From Anaeramoeba flamelloides (taxonomy: Eukaryota > Metamonada > Anaeramoebidae), in contig JANTQA010000047.1 of the NCBI GenBank assembly GCA_027625915.1, positions 20,212,001-20,276,000 on the forward strand: 64,000 nucleotides of DNA. Reading direction: 5' to 3'. Each line of letters opens with the position of its first letter. Position 1 is the stretch's first letter. A program made the translations under genes and the position numbers. A model generated the notes under the pieces. That model was not told the DNA's origin, did no database searches, and worked only from the letters and a program-made list of their open reading frames with translations. Below are positions 22,028 to 42,741 of the stretch, piece after piece.

Positions 22028-25000
22028 TTCAAGGTTGAAAGATAAAAAGAAATTTTTATATAAATTACTTGAAGCTTGTAAAATAAATTTATGAATTTGA
22101 ATCTTTTGATTATTTTGAAGAATAATTACCAAATCTTTGGAATGGTTTTGAGTATATAAAGAAGATAAAGAAGATCTTAAAGTTGGTAAGGGGTTTAAAA
22201 ATATTGAATTTGGGAATTTTTTTTGTATTAATTGATAATTTGATAATTTTTTTTGATAATAAATTGATTTAAAAAATTGAAAAATTAATTTTTGAGGATA
22301 TTTATTTAACTTTTCGGTAATTTGATTAATATTAATATTTAATCTATTTTCAAGGAATAATTTATTATTATTAATATTTTTTAAATCAATTTGATGATTT
22401 TGAGAAAATTGTTGATTTTTAAAATATGATTTAAAATCAGATAAATAATAATTAAAATTATATTTTTTTTAAAGCAAGGTTTTTTTTATAAAAGAATTGT
22501 ATTGGTTGATATCTTTCATCAAGACATTTTATTGAATCAATGATATTTTTTGAATTGCTATCATTCAAATCAACATTATTGAAGATAAATAATTTTATTA
22601 ATTTTCTTAAATAATTTCTCGAAGTGAAATTATCAAAAAACTCAGTTAAATGTTTAGAATATTCATCTAATAAGTAAGTACCCGAAGGTTTGATCATATT
22701 AAAATAATTGTTCAATGGTCTTTTTGGCTTGGCTAAATAATAGAAAGGGGAATAACCCTCGTTATTTAATATATTAAGATTTGCACCCTTGTTAATTAAA
22801 TACTGGAATGTATTAAAATTTTGAAAGGAATGTTTACATAAGTAATGTATAATCGTATTACCATTTGAATCAATTGCATTAATATTTAAGCCCAATTGTA
22901 AAAGGAATTGAATATTTTGCAAAGAGGGCATTTGGGCGTTATTACATAAATAGTGCAATACATTTCTATTTTTGTTATCCAACAATTGATTTATTGGGAC
23001 GTCAATATTTTGAATAAAAAAATCAATGCCCTGCATGGTTATTTTATTATTTAAACAATATAAATGGAATGGCGTCACAGCATTAATATCTTTTTTATTA
23101 AGATCAACATTATTGTACTTAAAGTATTCTAATATTCGGATATCAATTTCATTTGATTTAGTTAGACAATAATAGTGACAAATATTTTGCCTCTTTTTTT
23201 TATCTAAATGAGTAAGATTATAATTATAATTTTTGATTAAGAATTTTATCCCTTCCAATTGTGGATAATTTAAGCAATAATAATTTAAAAAATTTTCTTC
23301 TTCATTCTTAATTATTTTTGTCTTTTTGCTATTACGTTGTTTGAAATTCTTATTTTTATTTTTATAATCATTAATATTAAAATTAAAATTAATATTTTTA
23401 AAAATGCTTAAAAATATTTTTTGCAAGTAATTTAATAATTCATAATTTAAATTATCATTTTCAATCAAATATTGTATTGGATTTTTCTTTGATTTATCCT
23501 TTTTTTTGATATTTATTCCCCTTTTCAGAAATATTTCAAAAATTTCAAGACTGATCTTGAAAGACTTGTGCCTATTTTTACATAAATAAAAGAATGGTGT
23601 TCTCATTTTCTTATCTTTAATATGGATATCAACATTAGTATTGTTTAAAAACAATAAAATAGCAGATGCCGTTTTAAATTTGGATTTGCATAAATAATGG
23701 AAAGGAGTAAAGCATTTAGTACTTTCAACAAGATTGACCTTGAGATTTTTAAATTCTGTGAAAAAATATTTGATTATTTCAGTTTTCGGATGCCTAAAGC
23801 AAAGAAAATGAAAGGCTGAATAATTCTCTTCATCTACTGAATTAATGTCAATTTTGTTTTTTGTTTGTAAAAAGGTTTTGATAATTTTCAATGAGGGGAA
23901 CTTTTGCCAGCATAATGATAAAAATGGTTGCACTTCAAAAGAGCTCTGGCTCAGAATTTGTTGTTCCATCATTGATTTCATTCGGACGTAATTTTGCATA
24001 TCTGGGGATTTATATTTCTTAAAATCATCTTCATTATTGAATTCAATTATTTCATTTGTGCTCTTCATATATTTGAAAAATAATTTATAGATCTCAATCG
24101 AAATGTCCCCATTGCTTCCACGTATAACCTCCAATGGCGTCACCCCTTGCTTATCAGCCATTGACAGAATCTTTGGTCCCTGCTCGCAATGCTTAATAAA
24201 CATTTTGATCACTTCCGCCGTCGGGTTGCCCTGGCATAGCATTAAAAATGCAGTTCTGCCTTTATAATCCTTTTTATTTATGTCCACACCTTCGTTGATA
24301 ATAAATTGTAACAATTTAAAAGTGGGTCTTCCCTGTTCACATAAATGATGAAAGGGGGTCTTTGAAACACTATCATTTTGATCGAAATTGAACCCCATTT
24401 CTAAAAACGTTTTTATTTATTGAATCCTTGGCGCCCTCTCTTGAAGTAAAAAATGAAAGCCATTTCTTCCTCCAAGATCTTTACTATCAAAGTCGGTACC
24501 ATAATGCATCAATTTATGAAGAAAATAAAATTTAGGTTTTAATTTGCAAATGGAATGGAAAAATGTTTTTTGATACCAATCCCTCTGATTAATATTCTGA
24601 ATATGTTGTAAGCAATATTTGAACAGATTTTTGGAAGGGTTGCATAAGCATATTAATGAGATTCCCTTGTGACTGTTTTTATAAATTATATTTTTTGGAT
24701 AATTACTTTTATAATTTTCGCTGCCAAAGCTCCGAGGTGAGATCAATTGATTTTTTTTATTATCAAAAAACCAAATAGGAAATATTTTTTTATGTGCTTT
24801 TTTCCAACAAGAAAAACAATAATATTGATCATCAGTGCTAGTTGAAGAAATACAAGAAATCTCAGCATCCTTATAATTACATGCCGTGCATTTTGGTAAA
24901 ACTTTAATATTTTTCGTTAAAGTATATGGATAATTTTCAAATATTAATTTATAATTTTTTTTCTTTTCTAATTCCCTTTTTTTTTTCTTTTCCATTTTCT

Positions 25001-27358
25001 GTAATATCTTTTCTTCTTTTTGTTTCATTCTTATTAATTTTTCAGCTTCTTTTTGCTTTTGAATTCGCTCTTTTTTAATTCTGATACATAATTCTTTATG
25101 ATATTTCCAATTTTCTTTTTGACATTCTCTTGAGCAATAAAAAACCATTTTACATCCTGTGCATCTTGATAAATTTGTTTTTTTAAAGCAATTATTACAA
25201 TAGATTTTTTTTTTATTATTAAAATCAAATAATTTATCAATAATTTGATAAAATTTTGATTTTTTATTAAATTGATAATATTCTTGAATATTTTTTAATT
25301 CATAATAAAGATTTTTTAAATCTATTTTGTTGTTGGTGGTGGTGTTGTTGTTGTTGTTGTTGTTGTTGTTTCTCTTGTTGTTGTTTTTGTTGTTGTTTTT
25401 GTTGTTGTTGTTGTTGTCCTTGTCGTTATTTTCATTGTTTTTATTATTATTATTCTTGATTAATTTTTCAATAATTTGTTCAATATCAAATCCATACAAG
25501 TATTTAATAATAATTTGCATTGCTAATTTAGATTTATCATTAATATCAAGTTTGTTAAAATTATTAACAGTTAAAAACATTGATTTAAAGGTATTACTTC
25601 TTGTAAATAATATGAATTTATGTGATTTTATTGAATTATTATTATTTAATTTAATAGTAAAATTTTTCGTATTATCATATTTTGTAAAAGCATTTCTAAT
25701 GTCATTTTTTAAATTCTTTTTTTCAAAATTTTTTATGTTTAATATTCTTGTAATTTTTTTAATAATAGCTAAATTGGCAAGAGTGCTGATTTGCCCAGTA
25801 TATATCCATAATAAAAAATTATTAATATTTGAATTAGTAAATTTCGTATTTTTTAATCTGTTATTGATTGCTTTGATTGATAGCCCAGTTCTCCATAGTA
25901 AAATATCTTGATGACATTTAATATTATGAATTTTGCTATCAGTCAATTCTTTATTTTTCCATATATTATAGAAATCGTATTCCAAGGGATCAATGTGAAA
26001 TATTATAAAATTTGAAAAGTGGTACCCACATTTAAAAAGTTTGCATTTTTTACCTTCTTCGATCATTGGCTTTTCCAATTGGTAAGGCGGTAAAGGCACA
26101 GTGCCATTCATATTCGGTGGTGTTGTTAAATACATATAGTTGCCAAACCCAATATATAGCCCGCCTTCTGTAACAGCCATCGAATATTGCGCACCAGAAC
26201 TGATGGCAACAGCATTGTATTCTTGAATAAAATCACATACAGTCAGTTTCACTTTTAAGACACAAACTTTCTACGAAATTTAAGGCACAATAAAAATCTC
26301 AAATTAAGGTACCAAATTCAAATTCTAGTAAAAATAATTTGTGAAAATTAAAATTCCAAAAAATTGTGCTTTAATTTGAGATTTTTTTGTGCCTTAAATT
26401 TCGTTGAAAGTTTGTACCTTAAAAGTGAAACTGACTGTAATGCAAACTTTACTTTTTGAAAATCATGACCATTTTGATCTTTCATCCCACTATACCAGAC
26501 GCTCCCATTCTCCAAGAGAATGAAACTGGCAAAATGTGAACTTGTAATGTCTTTGATCCCTTGTGCGCCCATGCTTGTGAGATGCGAAATTGGAATTTCT
26601 CTCAATGTCAAGCCCGCTTGTTGCAGAAAACGCACTGTAGCCTAAGCCCAATTGGCCATATTCATTGTTCCCCCACCCTATCAATTTCCTTCCTTTTTTG
26701 GTAATCAAGAAATTTGTCCAACCATAACTAGAAGCAAAGATTTTGTCGACATCGGTATAAATTAGTCGTGGTAGCAATTGATCTTGTCCATTTGTGTTAA
26801 CCCCAACTGCCTTTTGTTGGTTACAACCCCACCCATAGAGATCGCCATTGCTCAAGAGCACAAATGGAGTGAAATATCCACACTTTGGTGTCAACGATCC
26901 TTAGTGGTGTTTGTGATTTTCCTTGGCCTTCTTTTTCTTTTTGGCTTACTTTTGCTCTCAAAAGCTTTTCAAAGAATTCAATTTTTTTTGGTTGAAAATA
27001 GGCTTCTGTATCGCCATGCCCAAGCTGCCCATTTTGAGATCCAAACGCTTTGTCTAAGGTCCACGAATACAAAGATCCTGAAAAGCCAAGTGCTAAATAG
27101 AATGTTGCTCCAGATGCAATCTTTTTAATTTTTTCTATTTTGACTTTTGTTGGTGAAGTTTCTTTTTGATTAATTTGATACAGATTGCAGTCATAATCGA
27201 GATGAATAGAACTAAAATCTGCAAGCGCATAATCTTTTATATCAAGCTATGGTAATATTTTTGGTTGGGTTGGTAAAACTAACCCTTCGTGTGTATCTTT
27301 TTTTAAAATACCTCCAATGTTGTTTTGATAGTTTCCGAAAAAAAAACAATTACTCATT
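21764..27358 (-). pseudogene. Decaying RCC1-BTB-MYND-ankyrin-BTB gene
   Basis: One very long host gene is readable from an ATG at about 27355 (MSNCFFFGNYQ) to a stop at 21764. In order it shows RCC1-type repeats (GSLYSWTLDKAFGSQNGQLG, GDLYGWGCN, LIGWGNNEYGQLGLG), two degenerate BTB regions, a 60-residue Asn-rich tract, a MYND zinc finger (CNNCFKKTNLSRCTGC, YCSRECQKENWKYHKELC), a second Cys-rich motif (CTACNYKDAEISC), about 15 ankyrin repeats (TPFHHLC type) and a C-terminal BTB domain with a second poly-Asn tract. It is broken: an in-frame TAG near 27250 where LP-LDIKDY should continue, frame changes near 26890, 26630 and at an A8 run near 22455, an in-frame TAA at 24417-24419 inside an ankyrin repeat, and the MITE at 26240-26437. 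Homopolymer miscalls could explain some frame changes but not the MITE or the stops. When intact it was probably a ubiquitin-ligase adaptor or scaffold; that role is inference. Confidence 0.75.
26240..26437. mobile_element. MITE family A, copy 2, inside the RCC1-BTB-MYND gene
   Basis: A 198-bp copy starting CAGTCAGTTTCACTTTTAAG and ending with its complement, flanked by TA (26238-26239 and 26438-26439). Removing the element and one TA joins KVKFAL to CDFIQEYNAV with no frame change, so the insertion site was coding. The arms are still close to identical, suggesting a fairly recent insertion. Confidence 0.9.
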
Positions 27359-30901: not shown

Positions 30902-32929
30902 TTATTTTAATTTATTATCATCAATTTCAATTTTTATGAATCCAAAATCACGAATAATTTTATTTTGAAAATTTCTTTGTAAACGAAGATAACTGTTATT
31001 AGAATAAATCTTTTTTTCAATTAAATTTCGATCTTTTTGATCAAATACTTTCTTGTATTGTTGTAATTTTCTAATTTCCTTTTTCCTTAAGCCAATATAA
31101 TATAAAATTAAATATAATAAATCCTTCAAATCTAGGGGTTTTAACGAAGAATAAAGAAATAATAAATTTTTGTTTGATAATTTTGGAATAAAGATATCGC
31201 AAATAGCTAATTGGCAAAAGGCTATCAAAGTTTCTTGATTTATATGTTTGGCAAAGGATAATAAATCTGCACAATGCTGGCAATTTTTAAATTGAATTTT
31301 ATTTGTTTTTAAGAAAGTTGCCAAATCTGAAAATAAGCAAGCTTTATAACCGATATCGATCTCAAGAACAAGAACATTATGAGATTTTCTCTTTTTTTCA
31401 TTTTTCTTCGTATTATTATGGATTCTTATTAACTGTTCCTTGATCACTTTTTGAAAATATTGCGTTCTTGCAATGAATAAGGATTTATTGGCAAGGACTT
31501 TTACCGGCTTTTTCTTATTATATTTGATCATTAAAATTAGATCATAATATTTATTCTTTTTCGTTTTTGTTTCAAAGCATTCAAATAATTTAATATAGTC
31601 TTTTTCAATTAATTTTTGGATGATTTTGTGATTCTTTTTTTTGATGGTGTTTGTATTTGTTGTGTGTAAATTTTCATTTAAACACTCACATATTTTTAAT
31701 AAATTGTTGTCCTTAAATTGATCAGCCAAATCTTTTAATTCATATAAGGCATCTGCTTCTATTGTCAAAATTGTTTCTAATTGCTCGCAATAGAGATATT
31801 TAAGATATAAAACAAAAGCAGAAAAGCTTAATGCTTTCATTTGATATTTGCCATCTCCCAAATATTTGATCCCAAGTTTCTTTTCAAGTTTTTTTGTATT
31901 AATTTTCTTATTTAGGATTTTTTGGAAAATCGCACTTCTTCCTCTTAAAACTATTTCTTGTGCATTTATTATATGTCTATATTCTAAGAAATCCTGTTTC
32001 TCTTTTCCTTTCTTTTTTCTTTCTTTTTTAATTTCTTTTTCTTTTTTAATTTCTTTTTCTTTTTTAATTTCTTTTTCTTTTTTAATTTCTTTTTTAATTT
32101 CTTTTTCGTTTTCTTTTTTTATTTCTTTTTCATTTTCAAAACTTTCGTCATCACCGTCGTCGTAGTTGGTGTTGTCTTCATCGCTTCTACTTTTTTTTTT
32201 AAACCAAATAAAATGAATATCTGAACCATAAATTTTGGGGTTTTCTTTTTCTAATTCGTCTTTTGGATCGATAGATAATAAACTCAGAATTTCTTTTGAG
32301 TAATTTGCTGACACTGTTGTAAACTGAACAGGCTTAAGGGTTTCTATTTTAAGTTTTTGAAAAAACCCAGATTTTTTTTTATTTAATGAGTTGGGATTGA
32401 GAGCTACTCGAATTGCTTCAGTAAAAACAGATTTCAAATTCCTTGATGTTAAAGCAGAATTCTCAAGATACTTTACAGCTCCAATATCTTTTGCCAGGTG
32501 GAGCCCTTGTTCATAAGTAATTGGTGTTTCTCCTCTTTCTTGCAGTTTTTTAATTGTATCTTGGTCGCGTCTAAGATCTAATTTGTTCCCGATTAAAAGA
32601 AAAGGTGTTTCAGGACAATGGTGCGAGATTTCAGGTTCCCATTTGCTTTTCACGTTTTCAAAAGAGGATGGGCGAGTTATATCAAAACAAATTAAAAACA
32701 CACTTGTGTCTGGATACGACAAAGGCCTTAGTCTCTCATGATCTTCAGACCCATTAGAATCCCACAGATTGACGTTGATTGGTTCTCCATCAATCATCAC
32801 ATTGGCTGAAGAGTTATCAAAGATAGTTGGGATGTATTCAGTTGGAAAGGCATTGTTTGTGTAACAAATTAACATAGAAGTTTTTCCAACAGCCCCATCT
32901 CCAACAACAACAAGTTTGATTCTCCTCAT
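30902..32929 (-). CDS. Rho-family GTPase fused to BTB domains (RhoBTB-like)
   Basis: An intronless frame of 675 residues, counted from the ATG at 32929. The frame is open a little further upstream but without an earlier ATG. Residues 1-180 align with Rac1 without a gap up to switch II: P-loop GDGAVGKTS (10-18), switch I with Thr35 (EYIPTIFDN), then WDSNGSED where Rac has WDTAGQED. Thus Ala59 is Asn and the catalytic Gln61 is Ser. The base-binding GNKLDLR and ENSAL motifs follow. A Lys/Glu repeat (about 268-312) interrupts the first BTB region (about 236-420); a second BTB is at about 460-580, and a helical C-terminus at 580-675 has no CAAX prenylation box. By analogy with RhoBTB proteins it is likely a Cullin-3 adaptor that no longer hydrolyses GTP efficiently; both points are inference. 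Confidence 0.85.
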
Positions 32930-33034
32930 TTTTCTAAAAAATGGAATAGACAGGAAATATTTTGGGTGAAAAACTTGAAAACGAAACCTCCTCAAATAAA
33001 AATTTGTGGTTTATTTTTCCTCTTTTTATTGTTA

Positions 33035-38512: not shown

Positions 38513-41500
38513 TTAGTTTTTTCTTTTTTTTTTACTCTGTTTTTGTTTTTTTTTGTATTCATATAAATATTCTTGAATATCACCACAAGACATTTCATAG
38601 GCATTTATTTTTTTGGGATTGCTTATCAGTAAAGGATCCGCTTTACCATATTCAATTAGAACTTTAACTGCATTTAAGTGTCCTATTTCAACGGCTTTAT
38701 GTAAAGGATTGCCTACATATTTATCTTGAATTGTTAAATCTGCTTCATAATCTATCAACAGCTTTATAAGTTTTAATTCTCTTTCCCTTAATTGTGGCCA
38801 TCCTGTAATATGTAATATTGGAGTTAGATCCATATCATCTTTTTTATTTGGATCAGCTCCCCTTTCCAAAAGTAAGTTTACTATTTCATATTTTTTTGTA
38901 AAAATGGCTTCAAAAAGAGGAGTTTCTTCTATTCCAGAGCTATCCGGGTGTATTCCAGCATCCAATAGTCTAGTTATAACTTTTAAGTTGGAACTTCCTT
39001 CAACGCCACAGGCTATAAACAAAGCCGTAAAGTCATATTTATCTACCAACTCAAGATTTGCACCATTATCTATTAATATATTAACTATATCTAGATTACA
39101 TGTAGTACAAGCAACATTTAAAGGGGTAAATCCTAGGTGATTTTGTTTATTGATATCAACTTTATTACTAATTAATTGTTTGATCGTTTCTATATCTTCC
39201 AAACGGATAGATAATATTAATTTATCTATCGTTTCAAGATTAGTTTTAGCTAAGAGGAGTTTATATATTTTGAAATCATTTTCAGGTCTATAATATTTCC
39301 TAATACACTCTATGGGTAGTTCATGTTGTCCATTGCGCAAATTGGGGTTAGCATTTTTCCTTAATAGTAGGTCAAGCAAATCTAACTTTCCTTCTTTTGC
39401 TGCAAAATGTAATGGTGATTGTTGATGCTTATTCAATAGATTTGGATCAGCACCATGATCTAGTAAAAGGTTTGTTAGCTCAAGATCTAATCCATTGTGT
39501 CCATAATCCATACAGCTTATGTGTAGTGGTGTATATCGCCTAATTCTACGGTTAGGATCTGCTCCTTTTTTTAATAACAATTCAACGATTTTAAATTTTC
39601 GACGATCAACGGCTAACCACAAATAGGTATAATTTTCATCGGCAAAACCATAGTTTATTATTTCATCAAAATTAATTATTCCAATATTAATTATTATTTG
39701 GGCAGTTTTCAAATTATCTGCTTCAATTGACGTAGCAAGTAATATTTCATGATGTTGCATAAGTTCTTTTTTGTTTAGCCAACTTGTTAAATATTCCAAA
39801 TTGATTCTTAACCACTTTTCAAATAACTTTCGAAAGGAATAACTATTTTTATAATAATATCTAAAAAAATCATCTGTCTTGTCTTCCAAAACAAGATCCA
39901 TTTTAGTTTCCAAATAACTATAAATCCCATGTTCCATAAATAAGTCATGTTCAAAGTTAACTTCATTTTTACTATTCGTGATGACAATTCCTTCTTGCTT
40001 TAGAGATTCAAGTACTCGCTTTGGAATCCTGGTTGGTTCTATATAGGTTTTATCTTCTTGTCTGCTTTTAAGTATACTAATTCTTTTCCACACCTGAACT
40101 CTTTGGCTGTGTAGGGATTCGTCTTTTCCTTCAATTGTTTTAACTATTAAAAAATTTTTAATTTTGTATTGATGTTTTGACTTTGGAATATTTGAGATCT
40201 CAATGTGACTGATAATATTAATAAACGTCTTCAAAAAAAACAGATTTTGACAAGTTCTCATTATTGTGAAGCTTTCAGTCACTCCCTTAAGTTCTTTATT
40301 AAAAGTCTTCATAAGCAATTTTTTGGTTATGAGGGGTACTTTAATAATTGTGATTTTTATTTTTGGAAGCAAATTCTTTTTCAGTGTTTCAATTTCTTCT
40401 TGAGTACATGTCATCAATAAAGGAATTTTTGCGTTTTTTAAGATTTCAAAAAATTTGATAAGTGTGCCTTGGTTTTGACAACCAACAACTTTCTCGATTC
40501 CGTCTATGCAAACTAATTTTAGTTCTCTGAAATTTGCTACTATTGTTTCAGGCTTTTGATCCAATTGTTGAAAATAGCTTACGTTGCGCAAAGAGCTTTT
40601 CTTAAATTCTTCAGCTTTCAATACTAAGATAGGTTTTGCTGTCTCTTTCTTTTCTACAAACATCTTCATTAAGCCAGATTTACCAACCCCCTTTTCTCCT
40701 GAAATCACAATTGCAGATGAATGCTTCAAAGATTCTTCAATTTTTTGTAATAAGTCTTCTCTTGGGAACTGGTTTTCACCAATCTTATTTTTTATGTTCC
40801 TTAAACAATTTCGACTTTCTCCTAATAATCTTTGATTAGATATGCCTTTCGAGTAAATGGTATTAAGTGTTTCCTGAAAAGATTCATCTGTAATCGATCG
40901 ACCTTTTTTAGCGCTGATCCAATCACAAAAGTGATAAAATAATAATTCTTCGATAGTAGAACTATATTGAACAAGTTCATTTTCTAATATCTTACCTAGA
41001 TTCTCTTTATAGCTTATTAAGTCTGATTCTCCTAAGTGCAGTTCAAAAATCCTTAAAAAGTCTTTTATATTCTCTTCAAATTGCAATTCTATTTGTTTAT
41101 TATCACCCTTATCTTCCTTCTTATGTTTGGAGTGTGATTTTATATGTTTAAAAATGCGTTCTCGAAAGTCTAATTTGGATCTAGGTATTGGACATTTTTT
41201 TTTTCCATCAATAAAGTCATCTGTGAATCTTTTTTTTTGATCATCAAAAATCGGATGTAAAATAACAGGTAACTTGCTATTGGAAAATAACTGGAATCGG
41301 CTTTGTTTTGGACTAGATTTTGTAATATTCATCCAATCATCAAAATAAGCACAAAAGGCAACCTTTGTATTAGTGTGTATAACTTTTTTCGGTGCAAAGT
41401 CATTCACGCAGTATTCGTTCGGTTTATTGGAATATTTAATTTGGCGATAAACTACACAGTTTTCAAGATCCAAAATAAAATCATCAAACTTTTCTATTTG

Positions 41501-41818
41501 TGATGTTTCTGTTTTTAATTCAAAATGTTTATTATTTAATGTCAGATCTAGTGCTTCATTTAAAAGAATCATAGCTTGATAGTGTATTCCCGGAGTTGTG
41601 TAAACAAGTGTTTGCCCAACCTTCGGGTAGGTTCTGCTCTTGAAAGGCGATTGAATTTCTTTAGTTAATAAATTATTTTGATTCTCATTGTCACCAACAG
41701 AATTTCCAATTATGGTATTATTAGTATTAATTTTGTTGTTGTTATTTTGATTGCTATTACTCTTTGTATTTTGATTGTTTAAATCATTATTGGTATTGTT
41801 ATCCTCATTACTATCCAA
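38513..41818 (-). CDS. Nuclease-like domain / STAND P-loop NTPase / ankyrin-repeat protein
   Basis: A single open frame of about 1,101 codons, intact throughout. Residues 1-60 are Asn-rich. Residues 75-200 resemble the PD-(D/E)XK nuclease domain of Cap4/DUF4297 proteins: GIHYQ at 77-81, FDDFIL at 111-116 and YRQIKYS at 124-130, giving an acidic residue plus a QxK motif. A P-loop NTPase follows, with Walker A GEKGVGKS (374-381), Walker B LVCIDGIE (435-442) and an arginine- and helix-rich region to about 700. About nine ankyrin repeats occupy 728-1080 (TPLHISC, SPLHFAAKEGKLDLL, TPLFEAIF). Effector, STAND switch and repeat sensor is the layout of bacterial antiviral STAND (Avs-like) proteins and of NLRs. 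The frame has no ATG before Met83; it opens upstream through ACAG, so a short 5' exon is probably missing from this call. Nuclease assignment is by motif only. Base composition is less AT-rich than neighbours. Confidence 0.75.
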   Translation of the reverse strand: MDSNEDNNTNNDLNNQNTKSNSNQNNNNKINTNNTIIGNSVGDNENQNNLLTKEIQSPFKSRTYPKVGQTLVYTTPGIHYQAMILLNEALDLTLNNKHFELKTETSQIEKFDDFILDLENCVVYRQIKYSNKPNEYCVNDFAPKKVIHTNTKVAFCAYFDDWMNITKSSPKQSRFQLFSNSKLPVILHPIFDDQKKRFTDDFIDGKKKCPIPRSKLDFRERIFKHIKSHSKHKKEDKGDNKQIELQFEENIKDFLRIFELHLGESDLISYKENLGKILENELVQYSSTIEELLFYHFCDWISAKKGRSITDESFQETLNTIYSKGISNQRLLGESRNCLRNIKNKIGENQFPREDLLQKIEESLKHSSAIVISGEKGVGKSGLMKMFVEKKETAKPILVLKAEEFKKSSLRNVSYFQQLDQKPETIVANFRELKLVCIDGIEKVVGCQNQGTLIKFFEILKNAKIPLLMTCTQEEIETLKKNLLPKIKITIIKVPLITKKLLMKTFNKELKGVTESFTIMRTCQNLFFLKTFINIISHIEISNIPKSKHQYKIKNFLIVKTIEGKDESLHSQRVQVWKRISILKSRQEDKTYIEPTRIPKRVLESLKQEGIVITNSKNEVNFEHDLFMEHGIYSYLETKMDLVLEDKTDDFFRYYYKNSYSFRKLFEKWLRINLEYLTSWLNKKELMQHHEILLATSIEADNLKTAQIIINIGIINFDEIINYGFADENYTYLWLAVDRRKFKIVELLLKKGADPNRRIRRYTPLHISCMDYGHNGLDLELTNLLLDHGADPNLLNKHQQSPLHFAAKEGKLDLLDLLLRKNANPNLRNGQHELPIECIRKYYRPENDFKIYKLLLAKTNLETIDKLILSIRLEDIETIKQLISNKVDINKQNHLGFTPLNVACTTCNLDIVNILIDNGANLELVDKYDFTALFIACGVEGSSNLKVITRLLDAGIHPDSSGIEETPLFEAIFTKKYEIVNLLLERGADPNKKDDMDLTPILHITGWPQLRERELKLIKLLIDYEADLTIQDKYVGNPLHKAVEIGHLNAVKVLIEYGKADPLLISNPKKINAYEMSCGDIQEYLYEYKKKQKQSKKKRKN

Positions 41819-42741
41819 TTGAATTTTAGACCTAGCTGTAATTTTGATTCAATTTTTGTGTTTTGGGTTTATTGAATTTTGTTTTTTTGTTTTTAATTTT
41901 GTTTGTTTTTTGTTGAAGATTATTTTAGAAAGGGGTAGAAAAAAAAAGAAATTAAATGTTGTCTTGGGCAGATCCTTTTTTTGTTTTTTTTTTATTTTTT
42001 GTTATTTCTTATTCTCTTTTTTTTACAAACAAACGGATTTATTTTTTTTTTTACTTCTTTTCATTTTTCTTCTCAACCAAATATCCTTTTAAAGTTTAAA
42101 AAAAATTATTGAGAAAGTTAAAATTATGATCAAAAATATCTGTAATTTTACAATTTTAACTTTATTTGGTTAGTTTTAAATCTTTATGAATTTATTATTC
42201 TTGAAAAAATTGAAGTTTGTATGAATTCTAAAAATATGTACGTTACTTTTTGGGAAAGGATGAGAAAAAATGACAAATTTCACTTTTCTGATTCAAAAAG
42301 CTATTATAAAAGAAAACTGTTATTGTGCTGAATCTTTCATTTTGCCTTTATTTAGTTATTTATATTTCTATTAATTAATATTTCTTTTCATTTTCAGGTT
42401 GCTGTGATTCTTCCAATTAAAAATTTTGTTTCACTTTTTTTCCACAACAGTTCCTTCTTTTCCTAAATCCTTAAAAAGTAATTCTATAAAATATTTCGAT
42501 ATTTTTTTCATTAAATTCGCAAAAAATCGAAAACCATCAATTAAATAACTAATTAAATCCTCTACTTGAAAAAGTATTTGATCAAAAACCTCACTAAGTC
42601 TCAGAATTGAGAATTTTTTTAATATTTAGAATCATTTTTCCCGTTTTTTTAAAATTTTTCATTTTTTTTCAAACGTTTACCAAACCCCAAATACTTAACA
42701 ATTAAAAAAACACAAACCAAAAACACAACTACCAAAAAATA
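41819..42741. promoter_or_regulatory. Shared 5' region between two divergent genes
   Basis: The STAND-ankyrin gene reads left from here and the RCC1-BTB gene reads right, so this stretch of about 920 bp must contain both promoters and probably the missing first exon of the STAND gene. A splice acceptor-like TTACAG lies on the minus strand just above 41838. I could not identify a core promoter motif. Confidence 0.45.

Follow-up and report, generated by a model that had tools for sequence, protein, structure and literature searches.

A stretch of 64,000 nucleotides from the protist Anaeramoeba flamelloides (C48:20212001-20276000, here referred to as the window) was found to contain, at positions 38513-41818 of its minus strand, a single frame of 1101 codons without interruption, counted from a listed TTG, in which an N-terminal nuclease-like domain is followed by a P-loop nucleoside triphosphatase (NTPase) and ankyrin repeats. 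We propose, with moderate confidence, that this gene encodes a eukaryotic receptor of the Avs/NLR kind with a nuclease effector and an ankyrin sensor. The intact frame and the three-part order were seen directly, as were the Walker A, Walker B and HD residues of the NTPase and the YQ, ExxDD and QxK residues of the N-terminal domain, and the domain assignments were checked against family libraries, shuffled sequences, the reversed sequence and real open reading frames (ORFs). A first-pass annotation of this DNA had described an intact 3.3-kb frame with these three parts, which proved correct. Its guesses for both domains were supported by sequence comparison, whereas the fold of the N-terminal domain, the immune role and the acquisition from bacteria are still putative.

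The nuclease-like N-terminal domain

The N-terminal domain shares its YQ, ExxDD and QxK motifs with the Cap4/DUF4297 nucleases (PF14130; AbpA 8zue, LmuA 9ux7, DUF4297 9c1m, and Cap4 6vm6 and 7yib), but differs from them in that it is missed by Pfam's own model and is fused to an Avs4-like STAND module and ankyrin repeats. PF14130 (Cap4_nuclease) was located at 27 places in prokaryote genomes (one in 10, eight in 299 and 18 in 395 genomes, the last at a looser limit), and 20 of these places together with the plasmid protein L095 formed a profile of 21 sequences. L087, none of whose readable frames showed the motif, was omitted, as were L107, L108, L110, L111, L113 and L114, which matched other parts of the model only. 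The frames of most members were located by the motif pattern (exceptions are L085, L092 and L095), which biases the profile toward motif-bearing sequences. With filters off, as for the other profile scores in this paragraph, residues 67-240 obtained 27.6 bits, a value reached by none of 5000 shuffles (maximum 13.0), and two other cuts of the domain obtained 23.6 and 27.4 bits, again with none of 5000 shuffles as high in either case. Seven control stretches, which comprised other nuclease types and the STAND and ankyrin parts of the protein itself, scored at most 4.8 bits, one being without a reported score, and the profile members, left out singly, scored 12.1 to 88.0 bits. Against a background of 2164 ORFs, which excludes known Cap4-type loci and contains the frame studied here four times, the Cap4-type profile gave that frame 20.4 bits and the best-scoring other ORF 10.1. 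HHalign gave a probability of 73.3% in one run and of 75.6% in a second, in which 400 shuffles reached at most 3.4%. A profile of nine Cap4-type sequences gave 7.4 bits, and two of 2000 shuffles scored equally high.

The conservation of individual residues points in the same direction. Nine of the 14 columns that are invariant in five Cap4-like bacterial relatives are kept here, as read by eye, among them Y, Q, E, D, D, Q and K. An alignment of 10 rows that includes sequences from phage collections shows no variation at Q81, E109, D113 and K128. Of these residues we take E, D, D, Q and K to be the putative active site, on the model of PD-(D/E)XK nucleases.

Two results weigh against this assignment. 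Under the default filters of HMMER the Cap4-type profile reports nothing, this protein included. Furthermore, the same profile, built without this protein, finds the solved chains of AbpA, LmuA, an ABC-three-component protein and DUF4297 at E values of 9e-12 to 3.8e-5, but the Cap4 chains only at 0.03-0.39, beside an unrelated protein at 0.27. Because the former are found strongly and the latter weakly, the domain is placed by profile within a broader Cap4/DUF4297 kind and not specifically in Cap4.

Searches with the N-terminal part by other routes returned little: Pfam, at E values up to 10, gave no nuclease family, the model of PF14130 being likewise without a match, the best PHROGs match had an E value of 0.1, the best match in a sequence search of the PDB was a PPR protein (E 0.21), and tblastn against plasmids with the N-terminus alone found five Rhizobium records (best E 0.01). 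AlphaFold predicted the domain with a pLDDT (predicted local distance difference test) below 50 over most of its length when no family rows were supplied and with a mean of 42.5 when nine were; no noteworthy match to this low-confidence model was among those listed by Foldseek (best E 3.9) or VIA. The PD-(D/E)XK-like character proposed by the first-pass annotation is matched in motifs and in profile, and the fold itself is putative. The failed prediction, the silence of Pfam and the loss of the profile match under default filters would also be consistent with a domain that is catalytically dead or no nuclease at all, in which case the protein would be a signalling or scaffold STAND protein with ankyrin repeats. 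This appears quite unlikely given the nine retained columns with the full putative active-site set and the Cap4-type matches by bit score, ORF background and HHalign. Two other affiliations of the domain were rejected. A likeness by eye to a bacterial 'STGG' nuclease-like group failed in profile comparison (-5.4 bits, below the best shuffles; HHalign 0.1%), and a Mrr-like effector as in Avs4 was ruled out by 1.8 bits and an HHalign value of 0.5%.

The STAND NTPase, the ankyrin array and their bacterial relatives

The NTPase carries Walker A and B boxes, as the first-pass annotation had noted, followed by a winged-helix-type region, and is assigned by sequence to the STAND ATPases, with bacterial Avs4 as its nearest relative. 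The NCBIfam Avs4 model matched at an E value of 4.8e-28, with 97 bits compared to a cut-off of 1500 and covering only profile positions 169-511 of 1579; the PADLOC Avs4 model matched at 2.9e-21, and the best sequence match in the PDB was again Avs4 (3.6e-10). The predicted model has a NACHT-type STAND fold, and Apaf-1 and CED-4 are among its structural matches. The earlier proposal of a STAND-type NTPase was borne out by sequence, and a kinesin or generic AAA NTPase was ruled out by the NCBIfam, PDB sequence and structural matches.

The protein resembles Avs4 (AVAST type 4, NF041815; PDB 8dgf) in its STAND NTPase with winged-helix region and in its N-terminal effector of nuclease type. Of the features of Avs4, the STAND module was recognized by sequence, whereas a Mrr-like nuclease was not found and the whole-protein cut-off of 1500 bits was not reached. 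Its effector is Cap4/DUF4297-like where that of Avs4 is Mrr-like, its sensor consists of ankyrin repeats, and its 1101 codons compare to approximately 1490-1650 in most uncut bacterial relatives. Because effector and sensor differ, it is not classed as Avs4 proper. Avs2 and Avs3 have the order Cap4-type nuclease, STAND, repeats, and this layout is shared here; however, no PADLOC Avs2 or Avs3 model matched at E values up to 5, the STAND module is Avs4-like and the sensor is made of ankyrin repeats. The eukaryotic NLRs (NLRP3, NOD2, NLRC4 and Apaf-1) are similar in the NACHT-type STAND fold of the predicted model, but here the effector is nuclease-like, the sensor is an ankyrin array and the sequence is nearest to Avs4.

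The ankyrin array (Pfam Ank_2, E 1.7e-43) comprises seven strong units and one weak one, with a degenerate stretch at about residues 830-895, as judged with a repeat model built from the protein's own repeats, so that the earlier count of about nine was a fair one. At E <= 1e-5, and with no more than two candidates scored per genome, a scan of Pseudomonadota with nearly the whole protein gave matches in 131 of 398 genomes, but this is uninformative on the nuclease and STAND parts because all rows among the matches listed begin at query residue 629 or later and are ankyrin-driven. Among the matches scored, bacterial ankyrin proteins reached 60.2 bits, close to the level of the best one in the host (68.5 bits).

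A total of 69 bacterial STAND relatives, about nine of them cut or frame-broken, was compared; plasmid loci of Rhizobium (L013) and Pseudomonas (L014) were excluded as their longest ORF was the wrong gene. By profile, 49 of the N-termini are of the Mrr type (>20 bits), 11 of the STGG type and nine of another type or without a readable domain, one of these nine having a trypsin-like domain slightly below the Pfam cut-off. The Cap4-type profile exceeded 10 bits in none of the 69, some of which are incomplete, and the ankyrin repeat model matched none, the C-termini of the roughly nine cut or frame-broken rows being beyond its reach. A Cap4-like nuclease domain does precede a NACHT module in L115, a minus-strand frame of 1887 codons in a genome from the phylum of Flavobacterium. 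Since the N-termini of the relatives differ and Cap4-like domains accompany other STAND modules, as in L115, effectors appear to be swapped around STAND cores. None of the bacterial proteins examined combined a Cap4-type nuclease, an Avs4-like STAND module and ankyrin repeats. The STGG proteins (for example L001 of Hymenobacter and L002 of Azospirillum, both on plasmids) have an Avs4-like STAND module behind an N-terminal domain of similar motif order, but their N-terminal profile fails on the protein studied here and they are without ankyrin repeats.

Identity to the bacterial STAND modules is about 20-28% over longer matches, with short stretches up to 42%, and no close bacterial relative was found. 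At E <= 1e-6, a scan of Bacteroidota with the nuclease-STAND part matched two of 395 genomes, including the centre genome itself, and single-protein scans of viral contigs gave nothing useful. In a tree of 66 STAND rows, which omits four short or cut rows, this STAND module stands outside the Avs4 clade of 53 rows on a branch of length 3.15. When three further long-branched rows were omitted it joined the STGG group with support of 97/86, yet neither a grouping with Avs4 (p-AU 0.472) nor one with Hym and Hal (0.403) was rejected. The relatives that were found come from bacteria, which makes a bacterial ancestry of the STAND module plausible, although the collections searched contained no other eukaryotes.

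Several of these relatives are notable in their own right. A Haliscomenobacter plasmid (L016, 2706-10173) carries in a row a nucleotidyltransferase, a SLATT protein, an unnamed gene and a trypsin-like domain, slightly below the Pfam cut-off, fused to an Avs4-like STAND module; it may be a composite defence locus. L001 (5194-10233), L002 (4206-9413) and nine others are long bacterial proteins that have a start of the 'STGG-GT' type and combine D-D and Q-K motifs with an Avs4-like STAND module; they are described, where annotated, as hypothetical or ATP-binding protein. In Avs4-like STAND proteins of Campylobacterota (L057, 398-4975; L067, L072 and L076), hydrophobic, membrane-like N-termini replace the nuclease.

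Gene structure and genomic setting

The features of the gene are compiled in Table 1. Only 10 codons lie between the point at which the frame opens and the listed TTG, and the earliest in-frame ATG is residue 83, within the nuclease-like domain; for these reasons translation probably starts in a short upstream exon. Among 13 possible upstream joins, the eight with a common donor all begin at ATG 42064, and the predicted splice would join MKRT to RSKIQ.

Table 1. Features of the nuclease-STAND-ankyrin gene (positions in the window)
Feature	Position	Strand	Basis
Nuclease-STAND-ankyrin open frame	38513..41818	-	1101 codons from TTG
Predicted first coding exon, ATG 42064..42062	42055..42064	-	predicted from possible joins
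Predicted intron, 219 bases, GTAAAA...TTACAG	41836..42054	-	inferred
Asn-rich low-complexity N-terminus, residues 1-45	41684..41818	-	translation
Cap4/DUF4297-type nuclease-like domain, residues ~76-183	41270..41593	-	profile matches, alignments
GIHYQ, residues 77-81 (family YQ)	41576..41590	-	motif
IEKFDDF, residues 108-114: E109, D112, D113 (family ExxDD)	41477..41497	-	motif
YRQIKYS, residues 124-130: Q126, K128 (family QxK)	41429..41449	-	motif
SRFQLFSN, aligned to family FxLxTN stretch	41279..41302	-	alignment
Helical linker, residues ~236-334	40817..41113	-	predicted helices; block pLDDT 59-81, one block 48
Avs4-like STAND NTPase and winged-helix part, residues 335-680	39779..40816	-	family profiles, PDB sequence and structure matches
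Walker A GEKGVGKS, residues 374-381 (K380)	40676..40699	-	motif
Walker B LVCIDGIEK, residues 435-443 (D439, E442)	40490..40516	-	motif
FEHDL with conserved HD pair, residues 622-626 (H624, D625)	39941..39955	-	motif
Ankyrin repeat array, residues 728-1067	38618..39637	-	Pfam, repeat model
Basic tail KKKQKQSKKKRKN at the C-terminus, candidate nuclear localisation signal	38516..38554	-	sequence, signal consensus

The gene lies at about 20.25 Mb of contig C48, in an assembly of 254 Mb and 76 contigs. Its neighbours in the window are of eukaryotic type, namely, an RCC1/BTB gene, which looks intron-split to judge from its split reading frames, a Ras-domain protein, a BTB-MYND protein, an ankyrin ORF and an iron alcohol dehydrogenase fragment, and its G+C content is low, as in the surroundings. 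The chromosome-scale contig and these neighbours indicate a eukaryotic nuclear gene. The bacterial nature of the STAND relatives found would fit a recent bacterial or viral insertion, or a contamination, that is functionless in the host. We regard this as very improbable in view of the position of the gene far inside a large contig near RCC1/BTB, Ras and BTB-MYND genes, its local base composition and its low identity to bacterial STAND modules over longer matches.

Within the host genome, the nuclease-STAND part and the Avs4 family each match this locus only (best candidates scored), and the Avs4 family weakly matches three of 14 control genomes, none above its cut-off. Ankyrin genes are numerous in this host: with 42 of 3465 candidates scored, a search of its genome with the whole protein gave 55 matches, of which one is the gene under study and the other 54 begin no earlier than residue 664. 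Elsewhere on the minus strand of the window, the ankyrin ORF (22458-24398) and the BTB-MYND ORF (24417-26252) are separated by 18 bases and could belong to a single gene that an intron or a stop interrupts, and the ORF at 30902-32995, with 697 codons, is unusually long and has a Ras-family domain at its start.

Proposed function and significance

We infer nuclease activity, oligomerisation, ligand sensing, cell death, an immune role and a nuclear site of action, and we model the mechanism on Avs proteins. In the resting state, the STAND module would be ADP-bound and the N-terminal nuclease held inactive. Binding of a ligand to the ankyrin array, either a foreign protein, for instance a viral one, or a host protein in altered form, would cause ATP to replace ADP and the STAND modules to oligomerise. 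The oligomer would in turn bring the Cap4-type nuclease domains together, so that DNA is cut and the cell is killed or the invader destroyed. The basic tail at the end of the frame may be a nuclear localisation signal, whose consensus it resembles.

An excerpt of PMC12931631 describes that recognition of terminase or portal by Avs proteins leads their nuclease effectors to kill the cell. According to a passage of a review (PMC11249213), portal proteins of herpesviruses are able to trigger an Avs, and on that account a eukaryotic viral ligand is plausible. A more specific version, offered tentatively as we consider it possible but doubtful, is that of a self-contained nuclease-effector NLR: on sensing a viral structural protein, it would cut DNA directly and in this way kill the infected cell, with no need for caspases, gasdermins or TIR signalling.

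The same anatomy would also suit a nuclease-STAND switch in the host's own biology, whose ankyrin array would read a host protein and which would serve in programmed cell death, DNA elimination or transposon control. The presence of Apaf-1 and CED-4 among the structural matches, the single copy found in the host among the best candidates scored and the basic tail, which fits a nuclear role, all agree with such a switch. It nevertheless seems unlikely to us, as the antiphage protein Avs4 is the closest relative by sequence whose role is known and several solved proteins with this type of nuclease bear defence names.

No eukaryotic Avs4-like nuclease-STAND-ankyrin protein is described in the titles and abstract openings listed by searches of one library of open-licence papers. 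A eukaryotic Avs4-type STAND protein with a putative nuclease effector would represent an intermediate kind of protein, and it illustrates the swapping of effectors and sensors around one STAND core. In A. flamelloides, it provides a specific candidate for the cell-intrinsic defence of a protist. Should its function be confirmed, this protein, with the layout of a bacterial antiviral alarm but a sensor that probably consists of ankyrin repeats, may prove to be a eukaryotic relative of the bacterial Avs immune proteins.

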